Of a stretch of 64,000 bases of DNA, positions 5,760 to 62,063 are shown in pieces. This DNA is from Candidatus Poribacteria bacterium (lineage in GTDB: Bacteria > Poribacteria > WGA-4E > WGA-3G): assembly GCA_026706025.1 (NCBI GenBank), contig JAPOZO010000052.1, positions 236,337 through 300,336 on the forward strand. Direction: 5' to 3'. Under the pieces are notes generated by a model that saw only the letters and a program-made list of their open reading frames with translations, was not told the origin of the DNA and did no database searches. Position numbers and translations under genes: made by a program. Position 1 is the stretch's first letter. Every line of letters starts with the position of its first letter.

Positions 5760-5863
5760 TTAGCCATCATTCTCTTCATCTTCATTTTTATTAGATGGGG
5801 CATCTACCCACTTAAGCCCGAACTCCACACGCAATTTGAAGTCTACAAGATTTTCGCGTAGTA
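5760..5863 (-). pseudogene. Unidentified gene tail next to a palindromic repeat
   Basis: A minus-strand frame ending in TAA at 5760 reads LLRENLVDFKLRVEFGLKWV followed by an acidic tail (NEDEEND). It runs into the palindromic element at 5861-5904, which may have broken the gene. The frame has a natural amino-acid composition but no recognised family. Apart from these two remnants and the repeat, the gap 5336-5992 holds nothing recognisable. Confidence 0.3.
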
Positions 5864-5904
5864 GCCGGTTCGGTTGGGAAACCGAACCTACCGGACCTGG
5901 TACC
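5861..5904. repeat. Palindromic element CCGGT-type
   Basis: The arms CCGGTTCGGTT and AACCGAACCTACCGG surround GGGA, followed by ACCTGG. It is nearly the same element as the core at 15295-15333 (GTGCGGTT / AACCGCACCTACCGGG, then CCTGG), with arm changes that keep base pairing. Confidence 0.75.
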
Positions 5905-5992: not shown

Positions 5993-8227
5993 CTATAGAT
6001 TGTAGAGATACGTTACTTTAACCACAACAACCCGGTTTTCCAGCTGCAACTCACGAGTCAAACCTGTTCCAATAGGCGCGTCCCCCCAGGTCTCGTTATA
6101 GGCAACGAACAGATGGCTTTTCGGGCTATATTCCCATCCGAATAGGAGACTGAGCAGATAGTGCTCATGAATTTGCGCCGATAGTGGACGCTCTCTACCC
6201 GCTTGCGCGAACATCCGCAAAAACGATTCACGGGTGAACAGATAAGTTCCGCGCAACGAACTGACGAAAAATCTGCCGTCAATAGCACCTTCTAAATCAA
6301 GACTCTGCGCGTAGCTGCTATCTAACTCTATCGAGAAATTACTCAGTGGACGTAAGGTAGATTCAAGGGTGAGGCTCCGCTGTTTGCCCGCCTGTTGTCG
6401 TCCAAAGTTAAAATAGTCAGAGAAGTCTATTTCAATACCGATCGCTATCGGATTTGTGGAGTCGGTATCAATCGAAAACCCGTATCCGTCTGCTATAAAT
6501 ATCTCAGTCAGTTCTGCTGCTCGGCTCCGGTAATAGTATGCGGTAATGTCGTCTAAAAGGGTTTCCCTGAAGTCCATTCCGACGTAAGCGTTGACGTGCC
6601 ACCTGAATAGATCCTCGTCAAATTCGGGTGAGAGGGAGAGTCCTGGGTTCCGTTCTCTCCATTCGCTGAAATATTCAGGCGTATAAAGACTTTGCGAGAG
6701 GCGGGTGGTGATGCCAGAGAAAAACTGGCGGTTGCCCCAGTATGGAGAATAAGAGGTACGCATATAGGCACGTTGCCAGCCCCGGTTGCGTTCTTTTCGT
6801 AAAAATCCTGTTTGGTTAATCTCAAAGTGCGGCGCGACGCGTTCAAATCCGATACTACTGCTCCAGAGATAGTTCCGCTGCGCGAAATCAACCGTGTATG
6901 CGAAATTATCTTTATCCTCTCCCGGATGGAAACTACCAGCGTACTGACCTGTGAGATGATACGTTTTGCCAAGCGCGAGATTCATATCAATGCCGCCGAC
7001 TCTGCTGTGTGCCCAATTATCGCCTTCAGGTTGTTCCTTGTTTACAAATAGAATCCCAACATTTGAGCGTTTGAGAATATCGCGTTTAATTCGGATGGCA
7101 GAAAACCATGCCGTTTCTTTTCCGGATGAAGTGTTCTCAGAGAAACCGAATTCACCCGTTTGGTTTCCTAAAACGCCAATGGAATAGTTCCCTACCTTCC
7201 CTGTGAGTTTGCCACCCCAAAGGATATTCCCACGACTCCCGATACGACGGCTGAACATTAAGTCATAAGGCGTTTCAAAAAAACTATTTCCTTCAACGAA
7301 AAACGGTCGTTTTTCTGGAAAACGCGTCGGAAACCTGGTCAAATTAATTTCCAACTGATCTGCCTCAACCTGTGCGAAATCAGGGTTCACAGTAACGTTC
7401 GCCTTCAACGCGCTCGTGAGACTGTATTGGACATCCAAACCTGTGCCGAGTTGACGCTCAATATCCACATTAGCAGCACCAGCGGCACCCCCTAAGGCAT
7501 ACGGCGTGATTTCAAAGTTTTTCCCTGTCTCAATCCCCTGAATCCCTACGATATGCCCTAAATCGGACATCCGCGTAACAACACCCGCTTGCGTTAACTG
7601 TTTCCAAACCGTTACCTCGCTTTTTCGCCGATTTACTCGCTCTACGTCAAAACCCCAGATTTGTGTCGGTTTATCGGTGAATCGGAAGTTAGAAAACGGG
7701 ATTTTAAACTCGGCACTCCATCCGAATTCATCAATACTGCTTTCAACCCACCAAATTCCTTTCCAATTAGAGTCGCGCTGCGTATCCTCATACCGATAAT
7801 TATCGCTCTGAACACCGGCTGGGTTTGTGGCAAATTTATAGCCAGTGCGATGGTCGTGATGTGGGTCGATGAAGAAAGAGATAACATCTGAGGCATAGAC
7901 ATCGCCGCGCCGTGTCATCCGATTGACAATTTTATCGGGTTCGGCATCATAACATCGGAATGCGACATAGATATTATGGGCATCGTAAGCGATACGGAAT
8001 TCTGTGTCATCCGTTGCGGCGGTACCGCGTGTAGGCTCAAGTTGAATGAAACCGCTACGTGGTGATGCTTGCTGCCATACAGCATCATCCAGCACGCCGT
8101 CAATCTGTGGCGGTTCACCTTCGATGCGGTAAGCCTCAACGACGTGTTTACCTGTCCCTTCCGGGTGTGCAAAGAGAAACATTGGATATGAAATGGTTAG
8201 CAGTAGGACAATTATGAGTCTTGGCAT
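5993..8227 (-). CDS. DUF5916/CBM9-like outer-membrane beta-barrel protein
   Basis: 744 aa from the ATG at 8227, which starts a clean signal peptide (MPRLIIVLLLTISYPMFLFA). The next domain (about 25-220) is CBM9-like: IDGVLDDAVWQQA, DTEFRIAYDAHNIYVAFRCY, DVISFFIDPHHDHRTGYKFA, WSAEFKIPFSNFRF. The DUF5916 barrel region follows with its hallmark FPEKRPFFVEGNSFFE and LMFSRRIG, then many alternating aromatic strands to an end in VVVVKVTYLYNL, typical of outer-membrane barrels. In-frame upstream codons back to a TTG at 8263 overlap a perfect promoter, so they are not used. The ligand is unknown; the CBM9-like part suggests carbohydrate or glycoconjugate handling at the cell surface. Confidence 0.85.
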   Translation of the reverse strand: MPRLIIVLLLTISYPMFLFAHPEGTGKHVVEAYRIEGEPPQIDGVLDDAVWQQASPRSGFIQLEPTRGTAATDDTEFRIAYDAHNIYVAFRCYDAEPDKIVNRMTRRGDVYASDVISFFIDPHHDHRTGYKFATNPAGVQSDNYRYEDTQRDSNWKGIWWVESSIDEFGWSAEFKIPFSNFRFTDKPTQIWGFDVERVNRRKSEVTVWKQLTQAGVVTRMSDLGHIVGIQGIETGKNFEITPYALGGAAGAANVDIERQLGTGLDVQYSLTSALKANVTVNPDFAQVEADQLEINLTRFPTRFPEKRPFFVEGNSFFETPYDLMFSRRIGSRGNILWGGKLTGKVGNYSIGVLGNQTGEFGFSENTSSGKETAWFSAIRIKRDILKRSNVGILFVNKEQPEGDNWAHSRVGGIDMNLALGKTYHLTGQYAGSFHPGEDKDNFAYTVDFAQRNYLWSSSIGFERVAPHFEINQTGFLRKERNRGWQRAYMRTSYSPYWGNRQFFSGITTRLSQSLYTPEYFSEWRERNPGLSLSPEFDEDLFRWHVNAYVGMDFRETLLDDITAYYYRSRAAELTEIFIADGYGFSIDTDSTNPIAIGIEIDFSDYFNFGRQQAGKQRSLTLESTLRPLSNFSIELDSSYAQSLDLEGAIDGRFFVSSLRGTYLFTRESFLRMFAQAGRERPLSAQIHEHYLLSLLFGWEYSPKSHLFVAYNETWGDAPIGTGLTRELQLENRVVVVKVTYLYNL

Positions 8228-8436: not shown

Positions 8437-8570
8437 CGGTTCGGTTAGGAATGCAGGTCGCAACCCCCCTTTATCCCCCTAGAAGAAACACCCCAGCAAA
8501 AACACCCCCCATATCCCCCTTATCAGCGGGGCAGGGGCAGGTGAGTACACCGCAAAACCGCACCTACGGG
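8437..8570. repeat. Palindromic element apparently split by an insert
   Basis: The left half GGTTCGGTTAGGAA and right half AAAACCGCACCTACGGG match the two arms of the CCGGT-type elements at 5861 and 15295, but about 100 bp lie between them. The insert is rich in C-runs (CCCCCTTTATCCCCC, CCCCCTTATCAGCGGGG) and shares GAAACACCC-AGCAAAAACACCCC with 61983-62008. The rest of the gap 8264-8757 is AT-rich and holds no gene. Confidence 0.5.
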
Positions 8571-14389: not shown

Positions 14390-15187
14390 ATGGTTGAACT
14401 TACACGGAAAGACATCGAATTTTTCAAAACTGAAGGATACTTGGTCAAACGGAACGTCCTTGATCCAGAATTAATGGAACGCGCACGGACAAGACTCTGG
14501 GACGGTGCGCCCGAAGGACGTAAACGTGAGGATCCTGAAACTTGGATAGGTCCCTTCACGCCTGAAGAGGAAAACGTTGACAAAAGCAATAATCGCCGAG
14601 GTTTCCGCTGGAACTTCCGTGAGCCGGGTGGAGAGGGTTGGATGGTTCAACTCCTTGCCACCGATCCAAACGTCTGGGGAATGGCGGAGCAGCTTTTAGG
14701 CGAAGGGAACCTCGTACAACCAGAACGCGTTCGAGGTATTTACTGCACGCTGCCTTATGGAGATGTCCCTAAAAAATCAATCGGGTGTCATGTGGACGCG
14801 CACCCGTTTCATCTCGGAGCGGTCGGTTATATTGACGATGTACCCCCAGAGGGCGGTGGGTTTACTGTCTGGCCCGGGAGCCATCAAGTCTTCTATTACG
14901 ATTACCATTCCCAATACAAGAACGAACCGACACCACAGTATGATGTTGACCGCGAACGTATCAGCAGAGGTCCAGGGATTGAATGCCACGGCAACGCTGG
15001 AGATATCGTTTTCTGGCACCATCGCATCGGACATGCTGCTGGACATAACTATTCACGGCAGATCCGGCAGGCGGTGCTATACGATTTCCGAAAGACAGAA
15101 TTGGAACGGACGCAAGAGGAGCCGCCTAATGAGGACATGTGGCGGGATTGGCCCGGCATCAAGGCGTTAGAAAATGGTTCATCATAG
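14390..15187 (+). CDS. Phytanoyl-CoA dioxygenase (PhyH) family protein
   Basis: 265 aa, the usual length for PhyH-like Fe(II)/2-oxoglutarate dioxygenases. The iron triad is visible: HVDAH (H and D, about residues 133-135) and GHAAGHNYSRQIRQ (distal H and the 2-oxoglutarate-binding Arg). VPPEGGGFTVWPGSHQ and GDIVFWHHR are typical core strands. It probably hydroxylates a small molecule; the family is too broad for a substrate. GAAGAAGGATACAAGACA precedes the ATG. The preceding gap 14083-14389 has a short direct repeat GTTTAACTCTC and no gene. Confidence 0.85.
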   Translation: MVELTRKDIEFFKTEGYLVKRNVLDPELMERARTRLWDGAPEGRKREDPETWIGPFTPEEENVDKSNNRRGFRWNFREPGGEGWMVQLLATDPNVWGMAEQLLGEGNLVQPERVRGIYCTLPYGDVPKKSIGCHVDAHPFHLGAVGYIDDVPPEGGGFTVWPGSHQVFYYDYHSQYKNEPTPQYDVDRERISRGPGIECHGNAGDIVFWHHRIGHAAGHNYSRQIRQAVLYDFRKTELERTQEEPPNEDMWRDWPGIKALENGSS

Positions 15188-15222: not shown

Positions 15223-15241
15223 GCTTCAGTCTAACAGGTTT

Positions 15242-15390
15242 GTAGGCGCGGTTTTATGAAGATTAATTTTTTAATTCGGTAATTCCTTGGTGAAGCCCGG
15301 TGCGGTTAGGAAACCGCACCTACCGGGCCTGGGGGAAATTAGGATTACCGAATTATTTTCTTAAACTTCATTTAACCGCGCCTTCTGTAG
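15242..15390. repeat. Triple-nested palindrome
   Basis: Three inverted repeats lie one inside another. The outer arms are GTAGGCGCGGTTTTATGAAG and its partner around TTCATTTAACCGCGCC. The middle arms are TAATTCGGTAATTCC and GGATTACCGAATTA. The inner arms are CCCGGTGCGGTT and AACCGCACCTACCGGG. It fills the gap between two convergent genes. Confidence 0.8.
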
Positions 15391-16212
15391 TTATCTCAAG
15401 CCCAATTCCTTCAATGTTCCTGCCATCATATCATGCGCGATTTGCGCTTTCTCCATCCGCATGTGCGGAAACGTCTCCACCGAGATATACTTATCGTATC
15501 CCACTTTCCCTAAACTCGCTGCGAAGGTCCGAAAATCCAATTCATCTCCTTCTTCACCGGGAATCAGAAAGGTGCTGTAGGGATACATGCCTGTCACGCC
15601 TTTCACATGACAATGCGCCGTCAGCGGTCCCAATTTTTCGGTAACCTCAGCGATGTCCTCACCGAGATGATAGAAATTCGTGATGTCGTTAAGCGACTTC
15701 AGCGCATCTGATCCGACATGCTCAATCAGAAGCGTTACTTTTGCAGACGCATCAATGGTTGTTGCCTCGTGGTTGTGGATGTTCATTGTGATGCCGAGTT
15801 CTTCCGCGCGACGACAGATCGGTTTCAACACATCGACAAGGAGCCGCCATGCGAATGCGTCGCCGTTATCACCACCGTAGCCAGTGAGAAAGTTAACACC
15901 ACCTGCACCAAGTGCGACTGCTACATCTTGCAGAAGCGCGTAGTGGTCAACTGCTTTCTGTTGATCTTCCGCTGCCAGTTGGTATAGCGCCCCTCCGGTA
16001 AACGGATTGATAACAGAAACCTTTAATCCACTGTCGGCTACCATCGTTTTGACCTCTTTGAGCAAGTCGTCTGTGACTTCTCCAGAAGGAATATGTGCTT
16101 CTGGACCGCACATCATCTCAATCGCATCATAGCCAGCATCGGCGAGAATTGTGATGACTTCGTTTAGCGGAATGTCCTTCATCCCACCCGCATGATAAGA
16201 GATACCAATCAC
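15391..16212 (-). CDS. Sugar phosphate isomerase/epimerase (xylose-isomerase-like TIM barrel)
   Basis: 273 aa, GTG start with AAAGGAG upstream. The AP-endonuclease-2/xylose-isomerase-like fold shows in ISYHAGGMKDIPLNEVITIL, AGYDAIEMMCG (first metal-side Glu), NIHNHEATTID (His and Glu at the metal site), ITNFYHLGED, TAHCHVKGV and KYISVETFPH (final Glu). The family isomerises or epimerises sugars and inositols, or cleaves related compounds; the substrate is not evident. It is 21 bp downstream of the WD40 gene on the same strand, though without an obvious functional link. Confidence 0.85.
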   Translation of the reverse strand: MIGISYHAGGMKDIPLNEVITILADAGYDAIEMMCGPEAHIPSGEVTDDLLKEVKTMVADSGLKVSVINPFTGGALYQLAAEDQQKAVDHYALLQDVAVALGAGGVNFLTGYGGDNGDAFAWRLLVDVLKPICRRAEELGITMNIHNHEATTIDASAKVTLLIEHVGSDALKSLNDITNFYHLGEDIAEVTEKLGPLTAHCHVKGVTGMYPYSTFLIPGEEGDELDFRTFAASLGKVGYDKYISVETFPHMRMEKAQIAHDMMAGTLKELGLR

Positions 16213-29926: not shown

Positions 29927-30070
29927 CTGTCAGTCTTTGGTTATCGGTTTTCAGTTACGAGATTTCTGGTAGTGATAACAGAATCAGTAACTGCCCTACA
30001 CTGCTCTTAACTCTCACTGCGAGGCAAACTGACAACCGATAACTGATAACCAATAAAACTGATAACCAAT
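29927..30070. repeat. TTATCAGT-type inverted-arm element
   Basis: The left arm CTGTCAGTCTTTGGTTATCG faces a right arm with AACTGACAACCGATAACTG and two copies of ACTGATAACCAAT. It ends 3 nt before the ATG at 30074. Its internal segment TTAACTCTCACTGCGAGGC recurs inverted at 56995-57015. Confidence 0.65.
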
Positions 30071-54470: not shown

Positions 54471-54622
54471 AGTTGTCAGTCGTCAGTTATCAGTTGTCAG
54501 AAGAATAGACATTAGTCATTAGTTATCGATTTTCAGTGACTTAGCGAAGAACAGATATCGATTCATCAGTTCCTCTGTTCTTGCCAAGCACTGGCAACTG
54601 ACGACTGATAACCGATAACTAA
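54471..54622. repeat. TTATCAGT-type element in a divergent gap
   Basis: The left arm AGTTGTCAGTCGTCAGTTAT and right arm CTGGCAACTGACGACTGATA are complementary over about 25 bases. The element fills nearly the entire gap between RNase Z-like (start 54463) and MTA phosphorylase (start 54651). Confidence 0.75.
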
Positions 54623-54650
54623 CTGTTCATGTCTTGTGAAAGGACAAAAA

Positions 54651-56843: not shown

Positions 56844-57017
56844 AGTTATCAGTGTAATTAGTTGTCAGTTATCGGTTATCAGTTGTCAGTTTAAAGAGGA
56901 CTCTGAGAAAACCAATATCTCTTAGGACTGACAACTGAAAGGATTTTTTCTAAGGAAAAAATCCGAACTGACTGCTGACGACGACTTTACCCGTTATCGG
57001 TTTGCCTCGCTGTGAGA
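56844..57017. repeat. TTATCAGT-type element
   Basis: Left part AGTTATCAGT, GTTGTCAGTTATCGGTTATC; middle partner CTGACAACTG; right part GTTATCGGTTTGCCTCGCTG. The right end is the inverse of an internal segment of the element at 29927. It separates the aminotransferase start from the argS stop. Confidence 0.65.
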
Positions 57018-61820: not shown

Positions 61821-61907
61821 TTTACCTTGCGGAGTAACTCAGCAGGATTATTAATCAAGTGCCTGTCTTATAGTAAAATCGGAAAATATGTTTACACTTT
61901 TCCCCTT

Positions 61908-61936
61908 CGTAGGGGCTGGGTGACCCAGCCCCTACG
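61908..61936. repeat. Perfect GTAGGGG palindrome
   Basis: CGTAGGGGCTGGGT and ACCCAGCCCCTACG are exact complements around one G. It is the tightest member of the GTAGG family here. Confidence 0.8.
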
Positions 61937-62063
61937 AGTTACCGTGTGTGCAAATAATTATGGGATTTACTATAAATCTGAAGAAACACCCAAGCAAAAA
62001 CACCCCTCTATTTCATTACGGGCTAAGTTTTCGCGGCAACCTAAAAATAGAAGAAGTTCCCCT

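Follow-up and report, generated by a model that had tools for sequence, protein, structure and literature searches.

Nested palindromes in a Candidatus Poribacteria genome suggest that an IS630-type element targets hairpin loops

A triple palindrome between convergent genes

The sequence analysed here (the window) is a stretch of 64,000 nucleotides from the genome of a Candidatus Poribacteria bacterium, a sponge-associated organism. At 15242-15385 of the window three inverted repeats lie one inside the other in a structure of about 142 bp. A preliminary description of the window had placed three nested palindromes at 15242-15390, between convergent genes, and we were able to confirm both points. 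Upstream lies a plus-strand gene (14390-15187) with a Pfam match to PhyH and downstream a minus-strand gene (15391-16212) with a Pfam match to AP_endonuc_2. With 40 nt each, the arms at 15244-15283 and 15344-15383 are the longest in a list of 19 inverted repeats from the window, drawn up for arms separated by 300 bp or less. The DNA fold of 15238-15390 reaches -41.4 kcal/mol, compared with -16 ± 2.93 kcal/mol for 200 dinucleotide shuffles (z -8.67), none of which was equally stable.

The outermost layer is a REP-like, GTAG-tagged hairpin with its left arm, GTAGGCGCGGTT, at 15242-15253 and its right arm, AACCGCGCCT, at 15374-15383; it occurs in uninterrupted form in relatives and may act as a transcription terminator. 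The middle layer, which we term A, runs from ATGAAG to CTTCAT over 115-116 bp (15256-15371, with arms at 15256-15284 and 15343-15371). The inner layer, REP1, reads GTAGGTGCGGTTTCCTAACCGCACCGG on the minus strand (15297-15323). A known structured RNA was considered and rejected, as the sole Rfam match, RsmY, scored 17 bits (E 0.053), far under the gathering score of 57.

The inner layer is a REP

REP1 combines a GTAG tag with a short imperfect palindrome, as REPs do. Its core pattern occurs 129 times in the genome when up to two mismatches are allowed, against none for a reversed control; in the window it occurs twice, where 100 shuffles gave none. The second copy in the window (5865-5891, minus strand) carries a compensated arm change (GGTGCGG/CCGCACC vs GGTTCGG/CCGAACC), in agreement with the recurrence near 5861 noted earlier. 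In the genome collection the exact inner pattern was found in at least 117 stretches, and all 80 loci listed among them are titled Poribacteria. A search of viral contigs with the exact core pattern gave no match, and a link of REP1 to viruses is rejected on this ground.

Five Y1_Tnp genes are present in the genome. One of these (L062) is a RAYT gene (NF047646, 122.3 bits, cut-off 80); REPs of the REP1 kind flank it on either side, and one of these is interrupted by a repeat termed E2. A second (L063), at 53.8 bits under the NF047646 cut-off, has such REPs on one side, and a scan of the flanks of the remaining three (L061, L064 and L065) showed no REPs of this kind. RAYT matches were found in 51 of the 57 genomes searched and were over the cut-off in 36. 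REP1 is therefore a GTAG-tagged REP with a RAYT that is flanked by REPs of the same kind; this RAYT is its putative mobiliser, and a RAYT would have put the REP into A. A REPIN is a pair of REPs that face opposite ways across a spacer, whereas the element at 15256-15371 holds a single REP1 at the centre of a MITE, with no REP pair around a spacer. In its GTAG tag, imperfect palindrome, high copy number and nearby RAYT, the inner layer nevertheless resembles the RAYT-associated REPs and REPINs as they are characterised in the accounts cited (PMC3116915, PMC2817692).

REP1 is also central in two other MITE-like families with unrelated ends, a C type (CAGAGCCATTCAATT..., found in relatives at L087, L093 and L102) and an E type (TAATACCATTTCTAAAAG..., found in relatives at L092, L148 and L181). 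Three loci (L041, L052 and L054) are chimeric, joining the left half of A to the right half of another REP1-centred repeat, and look, from their sequence, as if they had arisen through recombination at the shared REP.

The middle layer shares its ends with an IS630-type element

The arms of A (ATGAAGATTAA...GGTAATT) have 94 matches in the genome, compared with none in a control, and are present in 43 of the 57 genomes. One pair of arms (G000:C63:48128-49368, where G000 is the genome of the window) bounds a stretch of 1,241 bp, ends included, and has the same 29-bp ends as A, placed as terminal inverted repeats around a gene (at 8128 and 9368 of locus L215). The open reading frame within it encodes 384 amino acids from its ATG, has its stop inside the right arm, and matches NF033545, transpos_IS630, at 161.9 bits (cut-off 100) and DDE_3 at 66.1 bits (cut-off 28.6). 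Relatives with 63-77% identity occur in six other genomes; no solved structure resembled the transposase in sequence at E 0.1. As the ends of A also enclose an IS630-family transposase gene, we read A, which is 115-116 bp long, transposase-free and present in many copies, as a MITE of an IS630-type insertion sequence (IS).

Transposases of the Tc1/mariner/IS630 group are known as TA-inserters. Judged by its profile matches, the autonomous copy carries an IS630-family transposase, but it is not a typical IS630 element, since the duplications found are TT, TC, TA or TG rather than TA throughout. The transposase is near full length in 7 of the 57 genomes, although the arms of A occur in 43, and genome G005, listed as a single contig, yielded 97 matches to the arms but none to the transposase.

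We classified the centres of 49 A/IS copies by pattern; the copies come from assemblies that are mostly metagenomic and are not all independent. REP1 lies at the centre of 32, of which three span 362-631 bp and may each be two elements paired by the script, a GTAGTAG-type REP at that of 3, and a third REP at that of 1; 5 span the transposase gene, and the other 8 hold either an interrupted or variant REP or something else. The shortest copy is 104 bp, and a fixed pattern for A without a central insert found none in 2.06 Mb of partly overlapping loci. With REP1 central in 32 of 49 copies, the middle and inner layers appear usually to travel together, and it is most likely that both reached the site as one unit.

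A arrived after the outer hairpin

It had been proposed in the preliminary description that small palindromes were inserted repeatedly into palindromes, and that uninterrupted outer and middle palindromes would reveal the order. For the locus at 15242-15385 (site 1), 75 of 117 genomes were matched; this genome and 29 relatives were taken, and 27 of the loci were readable on both flanks. By eye, 11 of the 27 have the simple outer hairpin without A, including that of the nearest relative, G015 (L184, L185, L187, L188, L189, L193, L199, L200, L201, L210 and L212), 3 have A (L183, which is this genome, L190 and L204), 2 have remnants (L191 and L194), and 11 have other sequence, partly other hairpins. 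Since the outer hairpin stands without A in so many orthologues, the nearest relative among them, A arrived later. Where the empty site of G015 has GTAGGCGCGGTTTTTAACCGCGCCTTC, this genome has GGTT-TT-[A]-TT-TAACC, which looks like a duplication of two loop bases. An empty site GGTTTTTAACC fits the same reading, and the duplication would consist of TT at 15254-15255 and TT at 15371-15372, the latter sharing its first base with the end of A when A is read as 116 bp. Repeated insertion is thus borne out for the outer layer, where uninterrupted forms were found and the triple structure is not common to every copy. It is not supported in the sense of a separate insertion for each layer at 15242-15385, as the middle and inner layers look like one composite, and an uninterrupted middle palindrome was absent from the 2.06 Mb of loci searched.

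At site 1, A is found in G000, G005 and G023, with the orientation in G005 and G023 opposite to that in G000, and the sister of G000 is empty. On the tree at least four changes are needed (when remnant L191 is counted as A and remnant L194 as without A), so the same loop has probably been entered more than once. In G023 the A element has a different REP at its centre, and in G005 an E2 repeat lies in the REP loop of A and a further hairpin lies in E2, making five levels. G005, G010, G021 and G028 are each listed as a single contig, and since the five-level nest is in G005, misassembly is an unlikely source of the nesting.

A second site, C77:17477, has 29 readable orthologues, with A in this genome alone, and a hairpin of the same type without an insert is found in 13 of the 29. 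Nine of these empty hairpins have a stem score of at least 7 and four are imperfect with a score of 5, the nearest relative G015 being among the four. The loop contains A in G000, E2 in G008 and G017 (L302 and L304), and a third insert in G010 (L290), which indicates that unrelated elements entered the same loop. At both sites one orthologous loop carries different inserts in different species.

Most copies of A lie in hairpin loops

We examined the flanks of the A/IS copies with an anchored stem test, in which the stem starts 0-5 nt from the insert and the threshold is a flank stem score of at least 6. This score was reached by 36 of the 49 copies (17 of 21 in this genome and 19 of 28 elsewhere), compared with 2 of 49 copies of a TA-target repeat, the B MITE (Fisher p 2.9e-13), 1.2% of 20,000 random positions and 14.7% of arm swaps. 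An earlier test with free alignment gave a weaker result, with 24 of 43 copies scoring at least 8 against 13% of swaps and 2.4% of random positions. In 28 of the 36 loop copies a gap of exactly 2 nt separates insert and stem on either side. An exact 2-nt duplication (TT, TC, TA or TG) was seen in 15 of these 28, where the two left bases are repeated at the right and an empty loop of 3 nt is implied, and in 18 of the 36 overall, against 19% for swapped flanks. Of the 13 of 49 copies below the threshold, the script wrongly paired two, L375 and L377, with an arm of an enclosing A, and nesting is seen in some of the rest; this accounts for only part of the 13. Seven full or near-full IS copies were found, five of them with both ends, of which four are in hairpins. 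L377 has both ends, but its right flank and the left REP half do not pair; in L376 and L378 the right end is gone and a left half-hairpin alone remains; and in L375 the IS sits in a REP1 that itself sits in an A. For the other repeats, a loop position was found for 0 of 21 G, 0 of 6 H, 2 of 38 C, 0 of 11 E and 13 of 22 E2 copies.

Nests of several levels were observed in which a B MITE contains a hairpin that contains A with REP1 (L103), a hairpin contains A with a REP1 that holds E2 and a further hairpin (L190), and an A lies within a hairpin within another A (L100).

The preference for loops could be one of sequence rather than of shape, if the transposase recognised particular REP-like sequences (GGTT..AACC and a few other repeat families). 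We consider this unlikely, although it is the alternative that survives best: the stem starts with AACC in 16 of the 36 targets, AGTTTG (6) and GGAGTG or GGGGTG (6) recur, and insertion sequences of five families are described as targeting REPs (PMC1525189). However, 20 of the 36 stems start otherwise (18 when two one-base variants of AACC are set aside), and the 36 have 15 different 6-nt starts with mostly the same 2,2 loop geometry. It is a good deal less probable that A inserts anywhere and that selection spares only insertions in intergenic hairpins. The position of site 1 between convergent genes would be consistent with this, but B MITEs of similar size are in loops in only 2 of 49 cases, and survival alone gives no account of the exact 2-nt distance to the stem or of the re-use of a loop across species.

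Growth of a single structured element through duplication or template switching, with no insertion, which had been the other suggestion of the preliminary description and would suit layers that are all palindromic and concentric, has almost nothing left to recommend it, as it is refuted for the outer layer by the empty sites with an intact outer hairpin and as the same A ends recur in unrelated hairpins and around a transposase gene. Equally far-fetched, in our view, is the capture of foreign repeats during repair after a host nuclease that cuts hairpin tips, such as SbcCD, had acted, which would place any insert at the centre of a palindrome and let unrelated inserts share one loop, but fits poorly with constant A ends common to a transposase-coding element, with the frequent 2-nt duplication, and with B, C, E, G and H repeats that are rarely or never in loops.

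Discussion

We hypothesise that an IS630-type element targets hairpin loops by their shape, that its MITEs bring new hairpins with them, and that A with its REP entered an older hairpin at the locus described here; on the evidence of the sequences we regard this as probable. The outer layer is a hairpin located where two convergent genes meet. The non-autonomous MITE A, a putative derivative of an IS630-family IS in which a REP hairpin replaces the transposase gene, would have entered the 3-nt loop of this hairpin with duplication of two loop bases. The IS630-type transposase would pick its targets by hairpin (or cruciform) shape and by no single sequence, and, with a hairpin at the centre of the MITE, each insertion would add a landing site so that nesting could be repeated. 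This theory is based on what can be demonstrated in the assemblies, namely a hairpin older than A, ends that A and the IS have in common, the loop position of most copies and the independent re-use of one loop; from these we infer that the transposase itself reads the hairpin and that insertion takes place while the DNA is extruded.

A possible reason for the choice of loops comes from the mariner Mos1, a distant relation, whose transposase flips target adenines out of the helix (PMC5481204), which makes an already unpaired loop a plausible easy target; with loop bases unpaired from the start, the flipping that Mos1 imposes at TA may be unnecessary. A more far-reaching version, to which we give an even chance, is that the IS630-family transposase selects extruded loops for their shape and makes a relaxed TN duplication instead of a TA one, and that the REP hairpins of its MITEs renew the landing sites and make the supply of targets endless. 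If so, this supply would explain the five-palindrome nest of L190 and the IS in a REP inside a MITE of its own family (L375). The same rule could also explain the palindrome-targeting repeats of Haloquadratum, the mobilisation of which has been called enigmatic.

The nearest likeness is the SMR-A repeat of Haloquadratum walsbyi, which is described as about 110 bp long, with inverted terminal repeats and no transposase gene, and as inserting within palindromes of other mobile elements (PMC3119063). The likeness is by description alone, and SMR-A differs in being archaeal, in having as targets the near-terminal palindromes of PATEs and IS605-type elements, and in the lack of a target duplication in that description (PMC3119063); for A, an IS630-type transposase gene with the same ends exists. 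The GTAG-15 repeats of A. variabilis and GTAG-23 repeats of T. roseum are REPs in longer palindromes, like the inner and middle layers here (PMC3733652). In the account given there the outer palindrome is tied to no transposon, and in A. variabilis it was not found without the REP, whereas here the outer palindrome of the REP is a MITE of an identified IS that targets a further hairpin. Several insertion sequences land in REPs as A does (IS1397, ISKpn1, IS621, ISPsy8 and ISPpu9/10); these belong to families IS3, IS110, IS4, IS256 and IS5, with no mention of IS630 in the text of that paper (PMC1525189), and A differs in using stems with 15 different starts. Finally, ISY100 (PMC2170065) and Mos1 (PMC5481204) resemble A and its IS in transposase family, inverted end repeats and a 2-nt duplication, but are reported to insert at TA, where A has TT, TC, TA or TG duplications in loops.

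Thus REPs in palindromes (PMC3733652), insertion sequences in REPs (PMC1525189) and palindrome-targeting repeats in Haloquadratum (PMC3119063) are, according to these accounts, already in print. In searches of open-licence literature we found no report of hairpin-loop targeting by an IS630-type element or of such recursion; an earlier report is possible, as one of the original papers on IS630 targets lies outside that scope. If a member of the Tc1/mariner/IS630 group does read DNA shape, it would provide a natural example of DDE transposition guided by structure, and it might serve to probe living cells for extruded hairpins. It would also show concretely how REPs and MITEs can assemble mosaic intergenic DNA, and, for palindrome-targeting repeats that move by unexplained means, it would supply a type of transposase that can be put to the test.

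Other repeats in the window

The B MITE of the window (TAGTAAAA...TTTACTA, 61871-61972) has ends TATAGTAAAA and, at its centre (61907-61937), a different GTAG-tagged hairpin. B MITEs duplicate TA and have ordinary flanks, and this copy has TA duplications at its flanks, while G011, G006 and G016 show the exact empty site with a single TA; a second copy (L023) is absent from G005, where one TA is left. Copies 94-99% identical to that at 61871-61972 occur elsewhere in the genome, and together with the three exact empty sites these suggest that the B MITE was probably active recently.

The preliminary description had also reported an element at 8437-8570 that appeared split by another insert, and this proved to be a REP of the REP1 kind (8438-8570, minus strand) with an E2 repeat (TGCGGTGTAC...GCGACCTGCA on the minus strand, 8452-8554) in its loop. 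E2 has a 30-bp minimal form, TGCGGCGTAC...GCGACSTGCA, and its loop copies lie in REPs of several families. Inside the E2 of the window lies a 22-bp G repeat, GAAGAAACACCCAAGCAAAAAC (8482-8503), which is present or absent at orthologous sites (L343-L349) and is very short for a mobile element. At 29937-30069, 54472-54634 and 56879-56938 there are clusters of short AACTGATAACCGATAAC-type repeats in both orientations.
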